Positions 2,575 through 20,405 of a DNA stretch of 30,098 nt are shown piece by piece. The notes under the pieces are model-generated. The model was given only the letters and a program-made list of their open reading frames with translations. It had not been told where the DNA came from and searched no databases. The stretch is taken from IMG/VR virus record IMGVR_UViG_3300023268_000003, positions 1-30,098 of that record, one strand, 5' to 3'. The position numbers were made by a program, and so were the translations under genes. The DNA is from a virus. The first letter of the stretch is position 1, and every line of letters begins with the position of its first letter.

Positions 2575-2759
2575 CCCTGTGCCTCCCCGGCGGCGATTAA
2601 AGCTTCCGCCGATTCGATGTTCATGGTGGTCAGTGTCGAGAGTACGGTCTGCGTGGAGAGATCGGCGAGAGGCGCAGAGTTCCGAGCCTGAATCTCAGCG
2701 ACAACCATCTTCACTCCGGTCTCGACAAGCAACTGCACGAGCTGTTGGTTCGCCTTCAT
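2571..2759 (-). CDS. Small helical phage protein
   Basis: A 62-residue protein, probably all helical and mildly amphipathic (MKANQQLVQLLVETGVKMVV at the start). It has no membrane segment or cysteine. Four-base overlaps with both the lipoprotein gene before it and the holin candidate after it support real, coupled translation. No family is recognised; it could be a small partner of the neighbouring lysis proteins. Confidence 0.65.
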   Translation of the reverse strand: MKANQQLVQLLVETGVKMVVAEIQARNSAPLADLSTQTVLSTLTTMNIESAEALIAAGEAQG

Positions 2760-3127
2760 TGCGCATTCCCCTTCAAGGCGATCAGGTTAGCGAGCAGGCG
2801 CTCAACCTCACCGAGCTGCAGTACGAGCGCCGCCTTGTCACTCTGAGCGCCAGTCGAGATCCAGACGCCGAGCACCACTTTTGACGCCCGGAGAGCCGCC
2901 TCGACCCCTTGCCCGGCTACCCGCACCTGCTCGATCTGGGAGTTCGTCAGAATGCCGCGGGCGTGCGCCTGCCCCGCTGCGGTGAGAGTCGCGGCATAGA
3001 GGTGGTTGGCCTCAGCGAGAGCTTGAACATAGGGCGCGGCGGGGTGTGCCGAAGGCCGAGGAGTGCCGGTGCAGCTCACGGCCAGGGCGCCTATGACCAG
3101 AAGCACGAGGATGGATCGGAAGCGCAA
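2756..3127 (-). CDS. Lipoprotein of the lysis cluster, possible outer-membrane spanin-like component
   Basis: The frame is open further upstream, but the best start is TTG at 3127, placed 6 bases after a perfect AAGGAG. It gives MRFRSILVLLVIGALAVSC, a textbook lipoprotein signal with lipobox AVSC. ATG at 3163 is possible but would add a long N-region. The mature part of about 105 residues begins with a proline-rich stretch (CTGTPRPSAHPAAPY) and continues as long helices. In Gram-negative hosts the residue after the cysteine (T) would send it to the outer membrane. Position between small membrane proteins and the endolysin suggests an o-spanin-like role, although it is longer and more helical than typical Rz1 proteins. 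Superinfection exclusion is an alternative. Confidence 0.7.
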   Translation of the reverse strand: MRFRSILVLLVIGALAVSCTGTPRPSAHPAAPYVQALAEANHLYAATLTAAGQAHARGILTNSQIEQVRVAGQGVEAALRASKVVLGVWISTGAQSDKAALVLQLGEVERLLANLIALKGNAQ

Positions 3128-3138
3128 GGGCCACTCCT

Positions 3139-3258
3139 TCACGGATTGAGCTTCCGCCACCATGGGCGGATACTCCAGTTGCGGGTGATGGTGTCGAGGT
3201 ATTCGACGGCGAGCGTGGCGAGGAAGACGCCGCCGATGGTCTGCAGAAAGGCTTTCAC
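3139..3258 (-). CDS. 39-residue hydrophobic small protein
   Basis: This small gene starts at GTG 3258, overlapping the stop of the gene at 3255-3704 by 4 bases (GTGA). It ends in a TGA that overlaps the AAGGAG used by the lipoprotein gene. The product begins MKAFLQTIGGVFLATLAVEY and has one short hydrophobic segment and a tryptophan- and arginine-rich tail (RPWWRK). It resembles small inner-membrane lysis accessory proteins but matches no family I can name. Evidence is the neat fit between two genes with a coupled start and shared SD/stop; length makes coding status uncertain. Confidence 0.5.
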   Translation of the reverse strand: MKAFLQTIGGVFLATLAVEYLDTITRNWSIRPWWRKLNP

Positions 3259-3704
3259 TCGGCCTCTCCCTTCCGCCGAGCGGGCACCCTGCCGCCGCCC
3301 CAAGTTTCATCGAGAACGTCGAGGCGCTTCTCCAACATCTCGGCCTGCTGCTTCATAAGCGCGGTTTGCTGGGATGAGTTCGCCGCGATCTGTTCAAACG
3401 AGATGGCCATACTGTTGAGCACCTTTCGAAACAAGCTGACGCGGTTGCCGTCCGCGTCGGGCTCCGAGACGAAGCGGGCGACCATCTTCACCTGCTCGAC
3501 CAACGTCATCCTGAGGTCGCCATCCTCCACCAAAAGAGCCCGGTGGATCTCGCCAATGCGCTTCATGTCGCCCGGCGAGACGCCATCCTGCTTGACTTTG
3601 ATGTGCTTCCCCACCCAGCCCGCTGCGCCAGCGGCAATGAGCGCGAAAAGCTCCCCCACTTCTCGCCACGAAGGAAGCGATGTCGGCAGATTCGGATCAG
3701 GCAT
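3255..3704 (-). CDS. Single-pass membrane protein with coiled-coil domain, lysis cluster
   Basis: A 149-residue protein. After about 15 polar residues there is one hydrophobic segment (LFALIAAGAAGWVG, about 19-33), followed by a basic KHIKVK and a long helical region. The helical region is rich in glutamine, leucine and methionine (about 85-130), probably a coiled coil, ending in a basic tail. This is the layout of phage membrane proteins that pair with holins or of inner-membrane spanin subunits (one N-terminal anchor, coiled-coil ectodomain). It overlaps the zinc-ribbon-like gene upstream by 8 bases and the small GTG-initiated gene downstream by 4. Role assigned by layout and position only. 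Confidence 0.7.
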   Translation of the reverse strand: MPDPNLPTSLPSWREVGELFALIAAGAAGWVGKHIKVKQDGVSPGDMKRIGEIHRALLVEDGDLRMTLVEQVKMVARFVSEPDADGNRVSLFRKVLNSMAISFEQIAANSSQQTALMKQQAEMLEKRLDVLDETWGGGRVPARRKGEAE

Positions 3705-3936
3705 CTTTTGGGTTTCTCCAGACCACCAGATCCCTCTGGGGTCGAGCAGGTGGACGGAAGCGCCGAGGTTCAGCGCGCCGGATTGAGGGCTTACGCTCGC
3801 GAGGTGCAGGCGGGAGGCCGTGGCCGTGGACGCAGGCGAGCACCCCGGGGCGGTTGGGCCAAGGGATGCGGGGGAAGCCGCACGTCTGGCACGGCGGGAG
3901 CGTTCCGACTCGCGGGAGTTGCGGGACGGTTATCAC
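3697..3936 (-). CDS. Small basic protein with a zinc-ribbon-like cysteine/histidine set
   Basis: A 79-residue protein starting at GTG 3936, preceded by GGAG with 9 bases spacing. Residues C16-x2-C19, then C35 and H37/H39 (PCQTCGFPR, ACVHGHG) could bind one zinc. The C-terminal half is very basic and proline-rich (RERKPSIRRAEPRR). The stop overlaps the next ATG by 8 bases, supporting coupling. It is the first gene after the 211 bp non-coding stretch, so it may be the first gene of the lysis transcript. A nucleic-acid-binding role is a guess. Confidence 0.5.
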   Translation of the reverse strand: MITVPQLPRVGTLPPCQTCGFPRIPWPNRPGVLACVHGHGLPPAPRERKPSIRRAEPRRFRPPARPQRDLVVWRNPKDA

Positions 3937-3958
3937 GCCGCGAGGCTCCGGAATGGTT

Positions 3959-3964
3959 TATAAT
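3959..3964 (+). promoter_or_regulatory. Possible -10 element (TATAAT) upstream of the tRNA-like element
   Basis: A perfect TATAAT sits on the plus strand inside the only AT-rich patch of this region (about 3953-3972). A start about 7 bases downstream would lie some 20 bases before the tRNA-like element, the only plus-strand structure here. No good -35 box is found at 16-18 bases. The same patch read on the minus strand (TTGATTATAAACC) could instead serve the lysis cluster beginning at 3936. Confidence 0.25.
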
Positions 3965-3992
3965 CAATTTTCCGGTTGGCCCTCGACAGGCT

Positions 3993-4093
3993 TCGACCGC
4001 ATTCCCGGGGCCTCCAGCGGGTAATCTGGAGGCGCGATCGGATGCCCACCCCTTGTAAGGGATAGGCACCCGGTTCGATTCCGGGGGTCGGCG
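3993..4093 (+). tRNA. tRNA-Thr(UGU)-like element with aberrant, enlarged D-arm region
   Basis: The 3' half is clearly tRNA-like. An anticodon loop CTTGTAA (4052-4058, anticodon TGT) has a weak CCC/GGG stem. A 5-base variable loop AGGCA follows, then a perfect T-arm with CCCGG (4069-4073), loop TTCGATT (4074-4080) and CCGGG (4081-4085). The acceptor 3' strand GGTCGGC (4086-4092) has no partner at the usual distance. It can pair with TCGACC at 3993-3998 (6 pairs, one G-U), and GCAT 3999-4002 pairs with ATGC 4042-4045 as a D-stem. That leaves a 39-base insertion in the D loop and no bases between acceptor and D-stem. No CCA is encoded. It may be a degenerate tRNA, a tRNA 3' fragment such as a phage attachment site, or a tRNA-like RNA. 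It lies opposite to all nearby genes. Confidence 0.35.
4010..4033. other. Perfect 8 bp hairpin inside the tRNA-like element
   Basis: GCCTCCAG (4010-4017) pairs perfectly with CTGGAGGC (4026-4033) around an 8-base loop. It falls where the D loop of the tRNA-like element would be. There is no following T-run on either strand, so it is not a typical intrinsic terminator. The 211 bases between the coding sequences at 3936 and 4148 hold this hairpin, the tRNA-like arms and the AT-rich patch, and no convincing gene. Confidence 0.5.
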
Positions 4094-4147
4094 TCTTTCC
4101 GCTCACGCCCTACACCCCGATGACAGGCAGACCCGAAGCCGCAACAT

Positions 4148-4456
4148 CTAGTCGCGATCCCCATCCTCAGGCAGCTCGATCCCGATCGCTCCATCATCAA
4201 TCGCAGCCCGGATCATGGAATCGAGGAAGAGGTGCGTGGGCGTGGTGCCGTCTTCCGCCTCGGAGTTCATGGCGTGTACCACCTCAGTGGCGAAGCACGC
4301 GGCGTCTACGACTCGGGGGCCGCTCCACTCTCCGGTTGCGGGGTTATATTCGCGGCAACCGTCGTCCTCCTCGGCTGCGAACTTGAGCGTATCGATGCCA
4401 ATCCGCAGCACGATCTCATCGCCTTCTACGCTCACCCGGAGGGGTTGATTGATCAC
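4148..4456 (-). CDS. Small acidic phage protein of unknown function
   Basis: The start chosen is GTG 4456, which overlaps the preceding stop (GTGA) and has AAAGGGG 5 bases upstream; an ATG at 4492 would overlap by 40 bases. The 102-residue product is acidic, with a beta-like N-terminus (RVSVEGDEIVLRIGIDTL) and a helical C-terminus ending IELPEDGDRD. Similar short proteins are common near phage tail or lysis genes, but no function is known to me. It is the last gene before the non-coding stretch with the tRNA-like element. Confidence 0.65.
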   Translation of the reverse strand: MINQPLRVSVEGDEIVLRIGIDTLKFAAEEDDGCREYNPATGEWSGPRVVDAACFATEVVHAMNSEAEDGTTPTHLFLDSMIRAAIDDGAIGIELPEDGDRD

Positions 4457-5175
4457 GGCTTCCCCTTTACGGCCTCGACCTTGGCCAGCCACTCATAGAC
4501 CGCCTGCAACCGGCGCCGCTGCTGAGGGCGCACGGGATTGATCCATCCCGCCGCTACCCGGAGAGTCTCGAGGAGCTCAGCGGGCACCGCGACCAGCACC
4601 GGCTGCGCGGGGCAGGAAGGGCAGGCCACGGGCGGCTGACACGCCTGGCACTCCACTACAGGGGGGCACGTCACCGCTGGCGGACAGGCAGCGCATGGAG
4701 CGGGAGGCACCATGCAGACCGAGGGCAGTGCGCAGGAGGGCGTAGGCGGGCCGACGGGCGGCTCCGCTCTGTGGAGTTGCGCGAGCAGCGGATCCACCAC
4801 AGCTCCCCACCAGCTCTGCCCGTTGTACCGCAACATGCGGGCGTCCACCCAGTCCGTAGTGGTTGCGACGTATGTCCGCGACAGCCCAGCCAAGAGGCCC
4901 GCCGCCGCGAGCTCCGTCAGGTCCTCAACGCTCGTGCCTTCGGGCCCGCGCAGTGTTCCAAGGGGCCGCTGAGGAAGGCCGTACCGGGTCAGGAAGAAGT
5001 CTCCCGCCATCGGAATCTCGGGATGGAAGGTCCCGGTGATCTGTGCGCCGGTCCCATCCTTCAAGGCGACGGTCTGTCGGAGACCGGATTCATAAAGTCG
5101 GCGCCCAAGCTCCTGCGCACAAAGCTGCGAGCCCGAGAGCAGGAGAAGCAGGAGAGCGAAGTAGGAACGTTTCAT
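4453..5175 (-). CDS. Exported protein with a cysteine/proline-rich tract
   Basis: The start is ATG 5175 with GGAGG four bases upstream; the frame opens at 5220 but the earlier start lacks a site. The 240-residue product begins with a strong signal peptide (MKRSYFALLLLLLSGS, cleavage probably after LCA). There is no proper lipobox, so cleavage by signal peptidase I is expected. The mature N-terminal part (about 100 residues) looks globular (GTFHPEIPMAGDFFLTRYG). Residues about 140-190 carry nine cysteines among many prolines in motifs such as PCAACPPAVTCPP and CPSCPAQP. The C-terminus is helical and basic. It would be periplasmic in a Gram-negative host, where the cysteines could form disulfides or bind metal. 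It stands between the tail hub gene and the small gene at 4148. No family recognised. Confidence 0.75.
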   Translation of the reverse strand: MKRSYFALLLLLLSGSQLCAQELGRRLYESGLRQTVALKDGTGAQITGTFHPEIPMAGDFFLTRYGLPQRPLGTLRGPEGTSVEDLTELAAAGLLAGLSRTYVATTTDWVDARMLRYNGQSWWGAVVDPLLAQLHRAEPPVGPPTPSCALPSVCMVPPAPCAACPPAVTCPPVVECQACQPPVACPSCPAQPVLVAVPAELLETLRVAAGWINPVRPQQRRRLQAVYEWLAKVEAVKGKP

Positions 5176-5216: not shown

Positions 5217-8006
5217 TCAAGCAAGCGCCCGAACAGAAACCTTTCGGCCGGTCCTGGTGACGCCCAAGACAATGAAGCTCCGACCCGGTGAACCCATGCC
5301 TAGGCGAGGTTGGGGGGGACGGTCCGCAGTCTCGTAGGTCACGCGGATCTCAGCCCCTGGTGTTACGGCTAGAGCCGAGGATCGGAACGGGATCACACGT
5401 CGAATCCGATCCGGTCGGTAGAGCGGGAGAAGTCGCGCCGCTTCGGCCATCGCGTCCGCTTCGTTTAGAAGCGGACTTTCAATTTCCAGGATGCGGGCGT
5501 TCGGGTGATCGTCCAGAATCGTGGCATCCTGAACTACGGGCGCCTCGCGCCACCGGGACTGTGCGAACTGGTACCGGGCCGGCTGCGCGGTAACGATGCT
5601 CTGAAGCTGATCCGCCGTCATTACGTTGTGGTTTTCTGCGTAGAGGACGCGGACCCCACAGACCTCAGAGGTGATCCGGTCGCTCGCGTCGTCAATCTCC
5701 TGGTAGTAGGTATCCCGACTTCCGAAGTCCCCGGCATCGGGCGTTCCCGTCGGAAGCGCCACCTGCCCCGCTTGCAGGAGATCGGAGCCTAAGGCCGGTC
5801 GGGCATACGAGGTCAGGCCTTGCAGGAGGCTGTGGAGCACGTCCTGGCACGAACTCGAGTCATCAATGACCACGCCACAGTCCGCTGCCGTCTGGCGAAT
5901 ATAGGCGGAGAGGGAAGCGGTATGAATCGCTGCCCTTGTGTACCCTGCATAGCGCAATGCCACCACTACGATCAGATCGGCGGGCGCAATCCGCGAGTAG
6001 GTCCATGCCGCTCCCCCCGAGAGGGTAATCGCCGGACCGCCGCTCTTGAGGTTCGCGCAAGATGTGCCGGTGTTCTCGCTGAAACTCCAGCCCGCAGAAA
6101 GCCACGTCTCGGTTCCGATAACCGGGAGCACCACGAGCGATTCGATCTCCGCCTGCGTCAGCACGCGGTTCGCCACCATGACCTCGTCCAGGCGACCGGT
6201 CATGAAGTTGCTCGAGACATCGGCCGAGCGTCCCACCGCGAACGAGGACGAAACCGTATTGAAGGTTCCCGAAACGGCCGTCGAGGCTACCGGCGAGCCA
6301 TCGACGTAGATCCTAAGAAGCCCACCAGAGACGTCGAGAACGCCAGCGACGTGATACCAACGGTCTTGCAGTAGCGAGTCATAGACGGCGGTGTACTGCG
6401 TCCCCGCATCGTTGATGACACTCCACCGCAGGCGGTTGTTAGCACCCGTGGTGATGCCCAGCTTTCGAAAGCCAGCACCGTTGCCCGAGCGCCACCCGCA
6501 GAAGTCCCGGTTGCTCGCCGCGGTAACACCGGTGCTCACCAAACACGCCATGGTCATGCTACCGGCCGGGCAGGTATAGGTGGCGGTGCCGACTCCGGTG
6601 CCGTCGAAACTCAAGGCGGACCCGAAGTTCGTCTCGCCCACCATGTCGGCGGAGAGCTTTCCGTTTGCTGCGGCTACGAGGTTTACAAGGCCTCGGGTCA
6701 GGTCAACGCTGTACTGCGTGGTTACGGTGAGCGCCACATGGTTCGACCGGACTGCTGGAATCGCGAGCATGGGCCCGTAAGCCGCGCCGAAGATGTTGCG
6801 GCTCGGATCAATGTTTGTAAGCGGCACGTCGAGAGCCTTGCCGATCACGACCGGCGCCTTCTGGCCGACCAAGGAGGATCCACACCACCCAGAGCTCGCC
6901 CACGTGACACCTGTTCCGAAGGTTCCGGTAACCGTTGAGCCCGACTTCGTGCCCCGAGTTACCGAGCCCGACCCCTCCGCCAGGAGCAGAAGGTCATCCA
7001 GCCCGGTCTCTGTGCCGAGCAGAGGCATCAGCATGTTTGCGTCGATCTGCGCCAGCGTGCGTGCCACAGACCAAGGCCGCAGGTAGGAAATCAGTCCCCG
7101 GAAGTTTGGACCGACCTTCAGGTGGGCCGTGTTGGTTGCCAGCGTGCCGGTGACGCCTGTCGTGGTTGCTTGGAGGACCCGGTCGACATAGACCTTCCGT
7201 GTGGACGCGGAGGAGTCCCAGACCACTGCGATGTGGTGCCACTGGAGAGGGCGGATGGTTGCGGCCGGAGTGTCCGTGAAGGCTGGCGTCTGCTCACGAA
7301 CGCCCCAGCGCAGCGCCCCGGAACCGCCGGTCCCAACGTCGAGATATCGGCCTGCGCTCCCCGTGTCTTTGGAGTGGACGACCTGGCCTGCCACCGTGGG
7401 ATCGAAACAGTAGATCCAGACCTCTTCGGTGTAGGTGCCGGTGCGGTTGAGGACATTTCCGTAGTCGACGTGTCCCGCCGAGGTGCCTGGGAACGAGAGG
7501 CACGGGGGATTGAGATCGTGCCGGTTAAGCTGCTTTCGGAAGTTTCCTAGGGCACCGTTGAGCTTGATCGTCACTCGCGATGGGGTGACCTTAGGACGCC
7601 CTACGCCGACCCCGGAGAATAGCGGTTGTGCGGTCGCGTCGTCGTAGCGGATCGGGGTGCCGTTCGCGAGACGCCCCACCAAAAGGCACCGCACCGATAA
7701 GCCATCGACGGAGACGCCCGTCTCCCAGTCGTCATAGGTACCATCGTTGTGCCATTCGAGGACACCAGCCTCGATGCCGGCGAAGCCTCCAAGCCGCTCG
7801 CCTTCGTCAATTGACATCTCGGTGTTGAGGGAGGACGTGATGCCCCTGGAGAACTCGACGTCTATAGATGCGTCTGCCGAGGTGGAGTACGTGCGGGTTG
7901 CTTTCCGCAGGATGTTGGTAGCTCCCGACTGTCGGTAGGTGATCTCCCACAGCTCGGTACGTTCGATGACGTTGAGGTCCGCCAGGAGGTCTTCGTACGC
8001 CGCCAT
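5217..8006 (-). CDS. Tail hub/tip protein with two LamG-like domains
   Basis: A 929-residue protein. The N-terminus (1-150) resembles tail-tip proteins that contact the tail tube (YEDLLADLNVIERTELWEI, then beta-rich sequence). Two concanavalin A/LamG-like domains follow at about 165-335 and 460-625. Both have the typical late motifs: WHHIAVVWD with VYVDRVL in the first, and WYHVAGVLD with IYVDGSPV and GRLDEVMVANRVLT in the second. The C-terminal 290 residues look like the phage tail hub portion that closes the tube, ending with beta strands (RSFIVLGVTRTGRKVSVRAL). LamG domains commonly bind glycans, so it probably contributes to host surface recognition. It begins 4 bases after the previous stop. 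Hub role is inferred from position and size; the LamG repeats are seen directly. Confidence 0.8.
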   Translation of the reverse strand: MAAYEDLLADLNVIERTELWEITYRQSGATNILRKATRTYSTSADASIDVEFSRGITSSLNTEMSIDEGERLGGFAGIEAGVLEWHNDGTYDDWETGVSVDGLSVRCLLVGRLANGTPIRYDDATAQPLFSGVGVGRPKVTPSRVTIKLNGALGNFRKQLNRHDLNPPCLSFPGTSAGHVDYGNVLNRTGTYTEEVWIYCFDPTVAGQVVHSKDTGSAGRYLDVGTGGSGALRWGVREQTPAFTDTPAATIRPLQWHHIAVVWDSSASTRKVYVDRVLQATTTGVTGTLATNTAHLKVGPNFRGLISYLRPWSVARTLAQIDANMLMPLLGTETGLDDLLLLAEGSGSVTRGTKSGSTVTGTFGTGVTWASSGWCGSSLVGQKAPVVIGKALDVPLTNIDPSRNIFGAAYGPMLAIPAVRSNHVALTVTTQYSVDLTRGLVNLVAAANGKLSADMVGETNFGSALSFDGTGVGTATYTCPAGSMTMACLVSTGVTAASNRDFCGWRSGNGAGFRKLGITTGANNRLRWSVINDAGTQYTAVYDSLLQDRWYHVAGVLDVSGGLLRIYVDGSPVASTAVSGTFNTVSSSFAVGRSADVSSNFMTGRLDEVMVANRVLTQAEIESLVVLPVIGTETWLSAGWSFSENTGTSCANLKSGGPAITLSGGAAWTYSRIAPADLIVVVALRYAGYTRAAIHTASLSAYIRQTAADCGVVIDDSSSCQDVLHSLLQGLTSYARPALGSDLLQAGQVALPTGTPDAGDFGSRDTYYQEIDDASDRITSEVCGVRVLYAENHNVMTADQLQSIVTAQPARYQFAQSRWREAPVVQDATILDDHPNARILEIESPLLNEADAMAEAARLLPLYRPDRIRRVIPFRSSALAVTPGAEIRVTYETADRPPQPRLGMGSPGRSFIVLGVTRTGRKVSVRALA

Positions 8007-16914: not shown

Positions 16915-17655
16915 TTAGCGAACGCCTGCGGCCGACCGGATCACGAAGACGGGAGAGCCCGTTCCGCCGCCGGTATAATTAAAGCGATAGGTGGTATCGG
17001 TAATGGGGCCGGGGATGACCTTGCGCTCCTTGCCGCGAGTGGTGAGCTGGGTAAAGGTGGCGCGGGTCACCGCATCAGAGAAATCACCAGCCGCGGAACT
17101 CTCCAAGATCACGTCCTCGGTGGGCGCGGTGCCGCCGGGGAGCATCACGCTGTGGAGATGTGCGTAGAGGTTCGCGTCGGCCGCTACCTCCTCGAGCTCA
17201 AACTCCTCGCCCGGGCCACTCGGAGCTGGGCCAAAATCGAACAGCTTGCCTGGGCAGATCACCCCGTTGCTCTGATAGGTAGCGGCGAAGGGGACCACGT
17301 CGCCGGTCGGACCTCCGAAGGCGCTCTCCGCCATGACTGCGGGGAACAGGTACACCAGTGATCCGGGAGTGCGCGAGAGCCCGAAGGTCAGAATCGTGTT
17401 GCTGACGCCGAGATCCGCCTGAGCCTGGAGCCAGTTGCTTCCAAAATCCAAGTAACCGTCCACCGGCAGCTCCGCGCTCTCGGCTCCGGGAAGCCGCTTG
17501 CGCGTCAGTGGATCGGACGTGCCCGCTTCGATCGGCTTGAAGCAGATCCACTCCTTGATCTCTTGGCTCCATTTGAACGGAAGCCCCTTCGTTACGGGCG
17601 CGACGTCATAGGCGCCGATCGCCAGAAAGGCGTCGGAAAAGATCAGTTCAGCCAT
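16915..17655 (-). CDS. Major tail (tube) protein
   Basis: A 246-residue beta-rich protein with GGGGAAGG just before its ATG. The N-terminal 160 residues carry the SQEIKEW and RLPG motifs shared with the smaller protein downstream. A strand-rich stretch (GSLVYLFPAVMAESAFGGPTG) is also typical of tail tube proteins. The C-terminal 75 residues (from about 170) form an extra beta-rich domain (VTRATFTQLTTRGKERKV, then TDTTYRFNYTGGG) that may project from the tail. It overlaps the gene before it by 8 bases. It is 17 bases upstream of the second tube-like gene, so both should be produced at high level. Confidence 0.78.
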   Translation of the reverse strand: MAELIFSDAFLAIGAYDVAPVTKGLPFKWSQEIKEWICFKPIEAGTSDPLTRKRLPGAESAELPVDGYLDFGSNWLQAQADLGVSNTILTFGLSRTPGSLVYLFPAVMAESAFGGPTGDVVPFAATYQSNGVICPGKLFDFGPAPSGPGEEFELEEVAADANLYAHLHSVMLPGGTAPTEDVILESSAAGDFSDAVTRATFTQLTTRGKERKVIPGPITDTTYRFNYTGGGTGSPVFVIRSAAGVR

Positions 17656-17839
17656 TCGCCTTCCCCTTCTTTGCGGGCTTGGACGCCGGCTTTAGCGTCG
17701 CCCCTTCCTGAGGACTTGGCGCTTCGTACTTCTGGGAGCGGAGCCACTCCGCCCGAACAGCATCGACTCGGATAGCGGAGCCAGCCTTCCGGCCTCCGTA
17801 ATCCTTCGCGAGCACGATCACCTTAAGTCGGTCGCTCAT
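17648..17839 (-). CDS. Small basic protein of unknown function
   Basis: A 63-residue protein starting at ATG 17839, which overlaps the stop of the exported protein gene by 4 bases. A longer frame upstream is open but is shadowed by that gene. The N-terminus looks like a small beta barrel (LKVIVLAKDYGGRKAGSAIRV) and the C-terminus is lysine- and proline-rich (ASKPAKKGKANG). It overlaps the tail protein gene downstream by 8 bases. Small proteins of this look are common in phage head-tail regions; I know of no defined role. Confidence 0.65.
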   Translation of the reverse strand: MSDRLKVIVLAKDYGGRKAGSAIRVDAVRAEWLRSQKYEAPSPQEGATLKPASKPAKKGKANG

Positions 17840-18270
17840 TGGCCCACGTCCGGGTCTGAAGTCGAACCCGCGGCACTGGACGCTGCCGCTGCCGCCTGTT
17901 GGACGCGATAGCGGCGCACCGTCTCGAGTACGAACTGCCGCACCTGAAGATCGACGAACTGAGCCTTCGTCACAGCTACGGACTGTCCCAACTGGAGAGA
18001 GGTGCAGATCCCCGCACCCACCATGGAAGAGGTGCAAGGGGTCGGACTCTGCCAGTTGCCGAGCGCCGCGAAAGCGTCAGCGATCAGCGCAGACGGAGCT
18101 TGCAGGGCGCCCGCTCCATCGGGGTCAACCGTGGAGATCGGAAGGGAGTAGAGGACGTCGGACGTAGCCCGGCACAGGCTCGCCGTGACGAAGGCGTTGG
18201 TACACGCGCGAGTGCCCGCCCACGACGGCAGCGCCATGAGCAGCAGCGTAAAGAAGAGCAGCTTCCTCAA
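17836..18270 (-). CDS. Exported protein with N-terminal signal peptide, in the tail gene cluster
   Basis: A 144-residue protein started by TTG 18270, with AAGGAG 6 bases upstream and a TTGA overlap with the preceding stop. The N-terminus MRKLLFFTLLLMALPSWAG is a convincing Sec signal peptide (basic start, hydrophobic core, SWA cleavage motif). The mature protein has four cysteines (TRACTNAF, ASLCRA, TPCTSS, GICTSL), so two disulfides in the periplasm are possible. The C-terminus is an alanine-rich helix. Exported proteins are not expected among tail genes. It directly follows the collagen-like exported protein and may act with it. Confidence 0.72.
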   Translation of the reverse strand: MRKLLFFTLLLMALPSWAGTRACTNAFVTASLCRATSDVLYSLPISTVDPDGAGALQAPSALIADAFAALGNWQSPTPCTSSMVGAGICTSLQLGQSVAVTKAQFVDLQVRQFVLETVRRYRVQQAAAAASSAAGSTSDPDVGQ

Positions 18271-19586
18271 TTGTTGCTCCTTGCCAGCTCTACAAACCGA
18301 TCACTGGCGTAAATGAGAGAGAGGGAATCCTGAGGTCCGAGGTCGGCAGATCCAGCGAGCTCGGTAACGCCGGCCGCCTCCGCGAAGCTGCAGACGTTCG
18401 TCCCAGAGTTCACGATCCGAAGCTCTTGCCCATCGAGCGCGTTGGTCTCTGACAGGGTGACGTCACACCCGTCTGGATCGGCACAAGAACAGCGAATGAG
18501 GCTCGAGGCCGGTGTCAGAGTGGCCGAAGCCCGCGTGCCCGAGCCGTTGTCTGCAATGGAGAGGAGCGCGGATGGCGTTGCGAGCGTCGCGACTTCCAAG
18601 GCCGGGCGCCCACCATTGACCCCTATGGTGATGTGCCCAGAGGCGCCGCTCCCGCTGAGATCGATGGACCGCGACGAGCCCGAACTGATACCGATAGCGC
18701 CCATGCGGAAGAAGTACAGTTCCGCGCAACTTGGGTCAGAACAGGCATCGAACTCGTAGGCTCCCAACCGGCGAGCACCCGTCCCGGTGGAATCTGAAAT
18801 GAACAGCTCGTTCCCGTTCTGCTTCAGCGCCGGATAGGGTCCGGAGGACTGCCCCAGCTTAAGAAGACCAGGAACGAAGAGATTTCCGGAAGCGTCTACC
18901 GTTGCGGTGCTTCCCGCCAGCGTCGAGCCGCTGGTGCCGGAGAACACGGCTACTGAGCGGTCGGTGGAAGAGCCAGGGCCGGACAGGCCGCCAGGTACAT
19001 TGAGGACGGTGGTAGTTCCATCGTCGGCACACGAGATGCCTGAACCGACGCAATTCAGCTTGAGGCGCTGGGGCAGGTCTGACCCCTCATCTTGCACGGT
19101 CCTCGGAATGCCGTCCGATCCCGGGGACCCTGTCTCGCCCGTGTCACCCTTCGATCCTGTCGCTCCAGTAGCGCCCGTGGACCCGGTTGCACCCACGTCG
19201 CCGCGGGGAATCAGGAAGTTTAAGATGGCGGCACTCGACGTTCCCACGTTCACTACAGAGGCCGACGAGCCCGGCGCGCCGGTTGTCGTGGTTCCCGCGG
19301 CGACCGTGGCTGATTGGCCAGGGTCCCCCGGCTCCCCTGTCTCCCCCTGTGGTCCGACTCCGCCTGCGCCCCATGCGCCGTCGTGACAAAAGCACAGCAC
19401 CTCGAGTGAGCCGCCTCCGACGCTGCAGTCCGTAGAAGTTGCCGCGTTCGTGACCGCTACCAGCTTGGGCGAACCGTCGGTGCAGGGACCCAACTTCGCG
19501 ATCACGCGATGCGGAGGGACCGCGATGAGCTGCGCCGAGGCGGAACTCGCGACGGCGAGCAGCAGTGCCCAGCCGAAGCGCCGCAT
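18267..19586 (-). CDS. Exported collagen-like fibre protein
   Basis: A 439-residue protein. The N-terminus MRRFGWALLLAVASSASA reads as a signal peptide with an ASA cleavage motif. A cysteine-containing region follows (GPCTDG, TDCSVG, LCFCHDG). Two collagen-like Gly-X-Y stretches lie at about 79-95 (GPQGETGEPGDPG) and 127-160 (GATGSTGATGATGSKGDTG), with a beta segment between them. The C-terminal 250 residues are beta-rich and end in a fibre-head-like domain (LDGQELRIVNSGTNVC, then LGPQDSLSLIYASDRFVEL), a pattern I associate with trimeric phage fibres. It would form a trimeric fibre with a globular tip. The signal peptide is odd for a virion part: either it is secreted to the surface of the infected cell, or the N-terminus is a hydrophobic anchor. 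Confidence 0.78.
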   Translation of the reverse strand: MRRFGWALLLAVASSASAQLIAVPPHRVIAKLGPCTDGSPKLVAVTNAATSTDCSVGGGSLEVLCFCHDGAWGAGGVGPQGETGEPGDPGQSATVAAGTTTTGAPGSSASVVNVGTSSAAILNFLIPRGDVGATGSTGATGATGSKGDTGETGSPGSDGIPRTVQDEGSDLPQRLKLNCVGSGISCADDGTTTVLNVPGGLSGPGSSTDRSVAVFSGTSGSTLAGSTATVDASGNLFVPGLLKLGQSSGPYPALKQNGNELFISDSTGTGARRLGAYEFDACSDPSCAELYFFRMGAIGISSGSSRSIDLSGSGASGHITIGVNGGRPALEVATLATPSALLSIADNGSGTRASATLTPASSLIRCSCADPDGCDVTLSETNALDGQELRIVNSGTNVCSFAEAAGVTELAGSADLGPQDSLSLIYASDRFVELARSNN

Positions 19587-20405
19587 CTAGAGGAGCACCT
19601 CGGAAAGGCTCAGGACGATCAAGTTATCAGCGTCGTACACCGTCGCGAGTAGGCGCGAAACCCCTGAATCTGGCGCCGTGCTCCCGGCCCCGCTGACGCT
19701 CTGCGAGAGGTAGAGCGAACCCAGCGGCCAGCCGTGCGCAGGAATCCGAACTGCCCCTCCGACCGTCAACGAGAACGTGGTCGAATCGAGCACCTCTGAT
19801 ACGACCCCCTCACAACGAGGCTCCCCCTCGATGGCTCGTACGCGCCGCCACTGGGTACCATCGAAACCTACCCAGTCGCGAACACTGAGCCCGTGCGGCG
19901 AGGTGGTGGTGATCGAACGGGAAGTAGACCCGACGCCTGCCACGGTGACGCAATCCTCCTGGCTCAACTGAGCGGCCCGCCGGAACGGCAGGTAAACGCC
20001 CAGGACATACCAGCCCTGCTGGGCCTTATCGACCATCTCGTCCGCGCCGCTAGGCACGACGCCGTAGAACGCGAACCGGCCGCTTGTGGTCAGGGTTACG
20101 GCATCGCTCAAGGCGTCGAGGCGGGAGCAGAAACCGTCCACTACCTCGCGTCCAGAGTCTTGCTGCTGGCCAACCTGAAAAATGAGGCGACCTTCCAGCC
20201 AGCGGTGGCGTGTATCGTCCGCTCCGAAGTTCCCAGGGGTGTTGTCTTCATACTCGAAGTCGTAGGCGTAGAACTTCGACGGATCGGCCACGTTCCCGTG
20301 GGTCGGCATCGTGAAGCGCCGCCCGGGTAACTGGACGGGCCACCCGGTGAACTCACCACGGAGCATCGCGTCGATCAGCGAGTGTGCGACCTGGAAGTGG
20401 CCCAC
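19587..20405 (-). CDS. Tail terminator-like protein with C-terminal beta-domain extension
   Basis: A 272-residue protein. The first 145 residues have the size, position and features of phage tail terminator/neck proteins (helix at the start, FPVQLPGRRF-like segment, RHRWLEGRLIFQVG strand, then a GWYVLGVYLPF end). The extra C-terminal 125 residues form beta-rich modules (TTTSPHGLSVRDWVGFDG, then WPLGSLYLSQSVSGAGST) similar to small domains found on fibres and other virion surface proteins. The terminator caps the tail tube and joins it to the head. The extension probably projects at the neck. It abuts the fibre gene with no gap. Confidence 0.68.
   Translation of the reverse strand: MGHFQVAHSLIDAMLRGEFTGWPVQLPGRRFTMPTHGNVADPSKFYAYDFEYEDNTPGNFGADDTRHRWLEGRLIFQVGQQQDSGREVVDGFCSRLDALSDAVTLTTSGRFAFYGVVPSGADEMVDKAQQGWYVLGVYLPFRRAAQLSQEDCVTVAGVGSTSRSITTTSPHGLSVRDWVGFDGTQWRRVRAIEGEPRCEGVVSEVLDSTTFSLTVGGAVRIPAHGWPLGSLYLSQSVSGAGSTAPDSGVSRLLATVYDADNLIVLSLSEVLL

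Follow-up and report, generated by a model that had tools for sequence, protein, structure and literature searches.

A predicted exported pair of tail-fibre-type proteins in a phage tail operon that may dock on virions at lysis

Introduction

Tailed-phage assembly is taught as an entirely cytoplasmic process. Among phage proteins that do carry signal peptides (SPs), T5 Llp, phi80 Cor and TP-J34 Ltp are superinfection exclusion proteins that are exported by way of their SPs and act at the cell envelope; they are small lipoproteins, are not made of fibre modules and are encoded outside the tail operon. Gp40 of phage PBR31 resembles tail-associated hydrolases and has an SP; it is a single enzyme, and its authors read it as lysis-related (PMC10975493). 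Outside phages, Pantoea stewartii WceF is a tailspike-like protein that is exported from the cell (PMC7949094). For Agrobacterium phage Milano, a disulfide network is reported in a contractile tail (PMC10811340), and the target proteins of phage DGRs are stated to lack SPs (PMC6199706). The open-access literature gave us no account of tail fibres with SPs as a class, which is weak as evidence of absence.

Export would raise the problem of how a fibre gets onto the virus particle. Tail-fibre proteins with SPs turned out to be common in IMG/VR. If fibres and spikes with SPs are widespread, then either virions are completed outside the cytoplasm or receptor-binding fibres are exported for another purpose, and either outcome would alter the way in which receptor-binding proteins are identified and made. 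Here, we describe a pair of such genes in a 30,098-base IMG/VR stretch, which we call the window.

Results

The phage genes of the window, and all of its features given below, lie on the minus strand. Read along that strand, they begin with terminase, portal, protease, capsid, a decoration-type protein, connectors and a putative tail terminator (19587-20405). These are followed by a collagen-like protein of 439 aa (COL; 18267-19586, ATG start), a small partner of 144 aa (17836-18270, TTG start), a 63-aa ORF, the major tail protein (16915-17655; PHROG 9522), a second tail-tube-like protein and two small genes. The last part holds the tape measure (2010 aa; PHROG 27166), tail genes that include one with a LamG domain in two stretches (5217-8006; PF13385), a cysteine-rich gene of 240 aa (4453-5175) and the lysis region. 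The initial annotation had drawn both genes of the pair correctly, leaving the strand unstated, and had placed them between tail terminator and tail tube genes. The downstream flank is borne out by the major tail protein; the terminator, 19587-20405, gave no family match, and its label comes from position.

We looked for SPs with our own rule-based scan, which scores a basic n-region, a hydrophobic h-region and the -3/-1 rule. The scan called signal peptidase (SPase) I sites in 3 of the 34 called window genes, with predicted cleavage between MRRFGWALLLAVASSASA and Q in COL (SP at aa 1-18, 19533-19586), between MRKLLFFTLLLMALPSWA and G in the small protein (aa 1-18, 18217-18270) and between MKRSYFALLLLLLSGSQLCA and Q in 4453-5175. 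Neither COL nor its partner has a lipobox (SPase II site), and both are of the SPase I type by the scan. As background, ten related phage and prophage stretches gave 2 calls in 190 genes, one a lipoprotein and the other a false call on a capsid protein (3/34 against 2/190, binomial P about 0.005). When residues 2-30 were shuffled, COL's score was reached in 440 of 5000 trials and the small protein's in 64 of 5000. Because the composition of the N-terminus alone is SP-like, we treat the scores as modest evidence and conservation as the stronger argument.

The third exported gene, 4453-5175, was absent from the initial annotation. It comes after the LamG-containing tail gene, had no match in Pfam and PHROG family searches, and could belong to the module of the COL pair or stand apart from it. 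The scan also made one lipoprotein call among the 34 genes (2756-3127). The predicted lipoprotein lies near a membrane protein and an endolysin (PHROG 2649), with which it makes up the lysis region; this spanin-like placement suggests a diderm host.

The TTG of the small protein overlaps the TGA of COL at ATTGA and is preceded by a good Shine-Dalgarno sequence (AAGGAG-caacaa-TTG), so that translational coupling of the two genes, as first proposed, is plausible. COL shares fibre modules with annotated phage tail fibres. Its collagen-like G-X-Y region (about aa 70-160, 19107-19379) matches PF01391 at aa 129-159 (E=1.8e-5) and contains a module, ATVAAGTTTTGAPG...LNFLIPRGD, with matches in many phage fibres. 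A further fibre module, VQDEGSDLPQR..LN(C)VGSGIS(C), follows at about aa 161-201 (18984-19106); in most relatives the positions of its two cysteines are F and T/V or A. The C-terminus, about aa 360-439 (18270-18509), is beta-rich in a low-confidence model. COL's PHROG matches are mostly to tail-fibre families, which supports its description as a collagen-like fibre, with the qualification that the PF01391 score of 24.8 bits falls just under the curated cut-off of 27.2.

The N-terminal domain of COL resembled only one other protein, described below; it had no Pfam or PHROG family match, and we identified no virion-attachment domain in COL. The small protein is an orphan in family searches, and Pfam and PHROG searches found no enzyme domain in either protein. 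COL has 12 cysteines and its partner 4, in keeping with the cysteines first noted in both. The AlphaFold2 models (pLDDT 33 for COL, 52 for the small protein) are too poor to be of use in a fold search. COL also matched PDB entries for kinesin light chain; these matches are confined to the collagen-like stretch and are not meaningful.

A scan with the DEGSDLPQR module of COL retrieved a distant phage, IMGVR_UViG_3300003267_000033 (L149), in which the pair recurs in the same order within the neck/tail operon. The COL homologue (ORF 2928-4310) is 38.7% identical over 212 aa (E=1e-26); part of this match falls in the collagen-like stretch. Directly behind it, the small-protein homologue (4312-4737) is 42% identical over 79 aa (pairwise E=4e-12). 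Its SP was called by the scan, and its cleavage site aligns with that of the window protein. The N-terminus of the COL homologue, MMKMRQGVIRTVVLVPLLLESATICA before Q, reads as an SP by eye and was missed by the scan because of a glutamate. Cysteines 54, 65, 186, 366 and 399 of COL and C23 and C33 of the small protein are retained. In L149, the pair sits between a neck protein (PHROG 169) and the tail terminator (PHROG 179), and a tail protein and the tape measure come later; the pair thus precedes the terminator there and follows the putative terminator in the window. By the gene order of both phages, COL is encoded in the tail operon. Aligned by hhalign as single sequences, the neck/tail genes of the window and L149 gave no signal, being too diverged to align. 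The Sec SPs first proposed for both proteins are supported by the scan and by SP-type N-termini in both L149 homologues, and the search for the same pair in other phages found it in one.

L149 is the sole relative of the pair that we found. Searches of IMG/VR with the major tail protein, the small protein or the COL C-terminus yielded no relatives of the window, and a genome-contig search with COL gave collagen-type matches only. In relatives traced by capsid protein (L026, L028, L029, L042 and prophages L054-L060), the position that the fibre occupies in the window holds none. A profile of the small protein run against 398 Pseudomonadota and 284 Myxococcota genomes had one match, to an apparent membrane transporter, which we judged to be chance. 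We found no SP-less orthologue of COL, and no SP-less relative of its N-domain with which to compare cysteines. Modules of the COL type also occur elsewhere beside exported-type genes. A Manatee Spring siphophage (L148, MW202637; 1726-7055) has several consecutive exported-type proteins, two of them lipoprotein-like by eye, and one shares COL's DEG module, with cysteines. In IMGVR_UViG_3300005937_000009 (L074, 4059-8301), three consecutive genes bear SPs, and the first of them contains COL's EEGSDLPQR module.

Three other families, D1, D2 and D3, contain fibre-type proteins with and without SPs; we use them as analogues of COL that lie outside its family. D1 comprises proteins with a tailspike head-binding domain that matches the solved virion spikes in PDB 7eeq, 9vyg and 9vyh. 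An SP precedes the domain in 31 of 54 D1 loci from IMG/VR, a count that leaves out L140 and treats L113 as SP-less because its weak SP call was unconvincing. In the proteins with SPs, the cleavage site coincides exactly with the start Met of their SP-less orthologues. The latter mostly begin M-AGT or similar and the former read ...A↓AGT, where the arrow marks the junction, so signal peptidase would yield the same N-terminus that Met removal yields in the SP-less proteins. The residue before AGT (-1) is A, G or S in 28 of 29 SP-bearing proteins, and residue -3 is small in all 29.

The gene occupies the same slot whether or not an SP is present: it lies behind the head-closure gene (PHROG 578), after two large genes that we take from their position to be ejection proteins, and it usually precedes the same small gene. 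Mean identity within the head-binding domain is 70% in SP-bearing and 68% in SP-less proteins, higher than in the rest of the protein; the SP stretch itself reaches only 34%. No second D1 protein was present in any of the 41 loci (41/41) where the search found the domain. The initial annotation had set the pair apart from virion proteins on the ground that these normally have no SP. In that form the contrast is not supported: in the better-sampled families, SP-bearing proteins are slot-for-slot orthologues of SP-less virion spikes and fibres; because they keep the virion-binding domain and the slot, an SP is no argument against a role in the virion.

A pair of cysteines, in two alignment columns, is present in 25 of 29 SP-bearing D1 proteins and in none of 21 SP-less ones, always both or neither. 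On the D1 tree, SP state changes at least three to four times and the cysteine pair five times, with too few supported independent contrasts for a test. By our own count, which ignores relatedness, further exported fibre-type genes accompany 14 of 31 SP-bearing and 0 of 22 SP-less loci. Exported esterase-type proteins similar to PBR31 gp40 adjoin exported fibres in two loci (L105 9616-10515, SASA; L080 6368-7300, by eye).

In D2, the junction has the same form: FAWA↓GLETVTHI in L083 against M↓GLEVATYI in PaP3 orf12, which has a full-length match to PDB 9nxk, 'Tail fibers protein'. D3 comprises Bradyrhizobium and Rhizobium fibres. The inducible Bradyrhizobium phage ppBdUSDA122-1, reached through its capsid protein, ends its tail operon with two adjacent SP-bearing genes, one of which carries a Phage Tail Collar domain and is annotated as a tail fiber protein. 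A scan with the ppBdUSDA122-1 fibre gave 22 loci, and the fibre ORF has an SP-type N-terminus in 13 (12 by the scan, L068 by eye). All seven SP-bearing D3 fibres have exactly two cysteines in their first 130 residues, against none in the three SP-less ones. SP-less Rhizobium phage fibres (L183, L184, L185) have a tail-fibre assembly gene behind them and the SP-bearing fibre of the Bradyrhizobium phage (L063) has none adjoining, in small numbers. We rejected the rule that cysteine-rich fibres always have SPs, as some SP-less fibres are also cysteine-rich.

Discussion

The genes themselves, the SP-type N-termini, the conservation of the pair and of its place, and in other families the exact junctions between SP and start Met and the SP-linked cysteine pairs, are all present in the sequences we compared. 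We infer from them the actual export, cleavage, disulfide formation, trimerisation and docking. In our favoured model, COL and its partner, both of the tail-fibre type, are expressed late, carry cleavable Sec SPs and would cross the inner membrane during virion production. In the periplasm, COL would trimerise and both proteins would form disulfides, at a time when heads and tails are being put together in the cytoplasm. With the fibre exported and the virion cytoplasmic, a meeting is possible only at or after lysis, which would bring mature fibres and virions together; COL would then dock as an accessory fibre, and the small protein may serve as its partner or adaptor. The pair would be one case among a larger group of exported tail fibres, each an otherwise ordinary fibre with an SP added in front, precisely where its start codon used to be.

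We take export and oxidative folding to be the most economical interpretation, since the SPs appear cleavable, cysteines are paired and the two are coupled; on the sequence evidence, we regard export with disulfides, taken by itself, as highly probable. To the full statement, in which an exported, disulfide-bonded pair docks on virions at lysis, we give close to an even chance. For the COL pair, the mechanism is argued by analogy, from its SPs, fibre modules, conserved cysteines and tail-operon position, and it supposes that what is seen in the better-sampled families also applies to the pair in the window. Of the roles first offered, which were to coat the infected cell, block other phages or attach to released virions, the last fits best, if attachment is taken to mean incorporation into the virion.

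A different purpose for export would be that of a decoy: receptor-binding fibres, secreted late, could fill the receptors that the infected cell and debris expose, which would spare progeny from loss and keep rivals from adsorbing, as with T5 Llp but using tail fibres. Export is the supported part of this idea, the proteins are of the fibre type with presumed receptor-binding C-termini, and the virion could be served by further tail tip genes of the window phage that lack SPs. Position in a late operon fits decoys and docking equally. The D1 proteins weigh against it: those with SPs strongly conserve the head-binding domain and hold the slot of the virion fibre, and a decoy would not need the domain. 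For the same reason, we judge a virion role to be likelier than a pure decoy, which we consider unlikely though worth keeping in mind.

Cleavage is predicted only, and shuffled N-termini often still score as SPs, so the hydrophobic segments might instead be unprocessed anchors on proteins that remain cytoplasmic and join virions as full-length chains. We think this improbable, as 28-29 of 29 D1 proteins obey the cleavage rules precisely where the mature chain begins, despite 34% identity in the SP, and cysteine pairs accompany the SP. Still less probable is that the pair are exported proteins that modify the envelope or cell surface to help lysis or release: some neighbours in phages with SP-bearing fibres are exported esterases (such as L105 9616-10515, SASA), and the SP-bearing esterase gp40 of Xanthomonas phage PBR31 has a lysis role suggested by its authors (PMC10975493), but neither window protein has an enzyme domain and the window has a separate lysis region. 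An artefact of wrong start codons or chance hydrophobic N-termini, for which the small protein's TTG and the SP-like composition after shuffling might speak, is very improbable given the good Shine-Dalgarno sequence, the stop/start overlap, the SP-type N-termini in both L149 homologues and the excess over related phages (3/34 against 2/190 genes).

Beyond this locus, some fibres of tailed phages may mature outside the cytoplasm, by way of Sec and periplasmic disulfides, with docking on completed virions delayed until lysis; gain or loss of an SP precisely at the start codon would switch a fibre between cytoplasmic and exported modes. We put this forward tentatively, at somewhat less than even likelihood. 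The proposal of a new kind of phage module is partly supported, in that a conserved, predicted exported pair lies in the tail operon, a type of which we found no description.

COL is closest to the collagen-like phage tail fibres (PHROG 819, 1806, 4120; PF01391), with which it shares G-X-Y repeats, fibre modules and a place in the tail operon, and to which it adds an N-terminal SP and 12 cysteines. The tailspike head-binding proteins (7eeq, 9vyg/9vyh; Pam1- and PBR31-type podophages) have an SP ahead of the domain in about half of the IMG/VR relatives fetched; they are not homologous to COL, and the cultured members examined lack the SP. The ppBdUSDA122-1 proteins WAX24263 and WAX24264 come from a phage with a cultured host and resemble the pair in being adjacent, SP-bearing and fibre-type, with cysteine pairs and a position in the tail region, but they stand at the end of the tail operon and are collar-type, without collagen. 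Llp, Cor and Ltp are likewise phage proteins with SPs, whereas the COL pair is fibre-type, of the SPase I type and within the tail operon. PBR31 gp40, with its similarity to tail-associated hydrolases, also has an SP, and differs as a single enzyme that its authors link to lysis. WceF is unlike the pair in being a bacterial gene product with a Tat signal and an enzyme acting on biofilm glycan (PMC7949094). Finally, the contractile tail reported for phage Milano (PMC10811340) has in common with the state proposed for the COL pair that disulfides occur in a phage tail.
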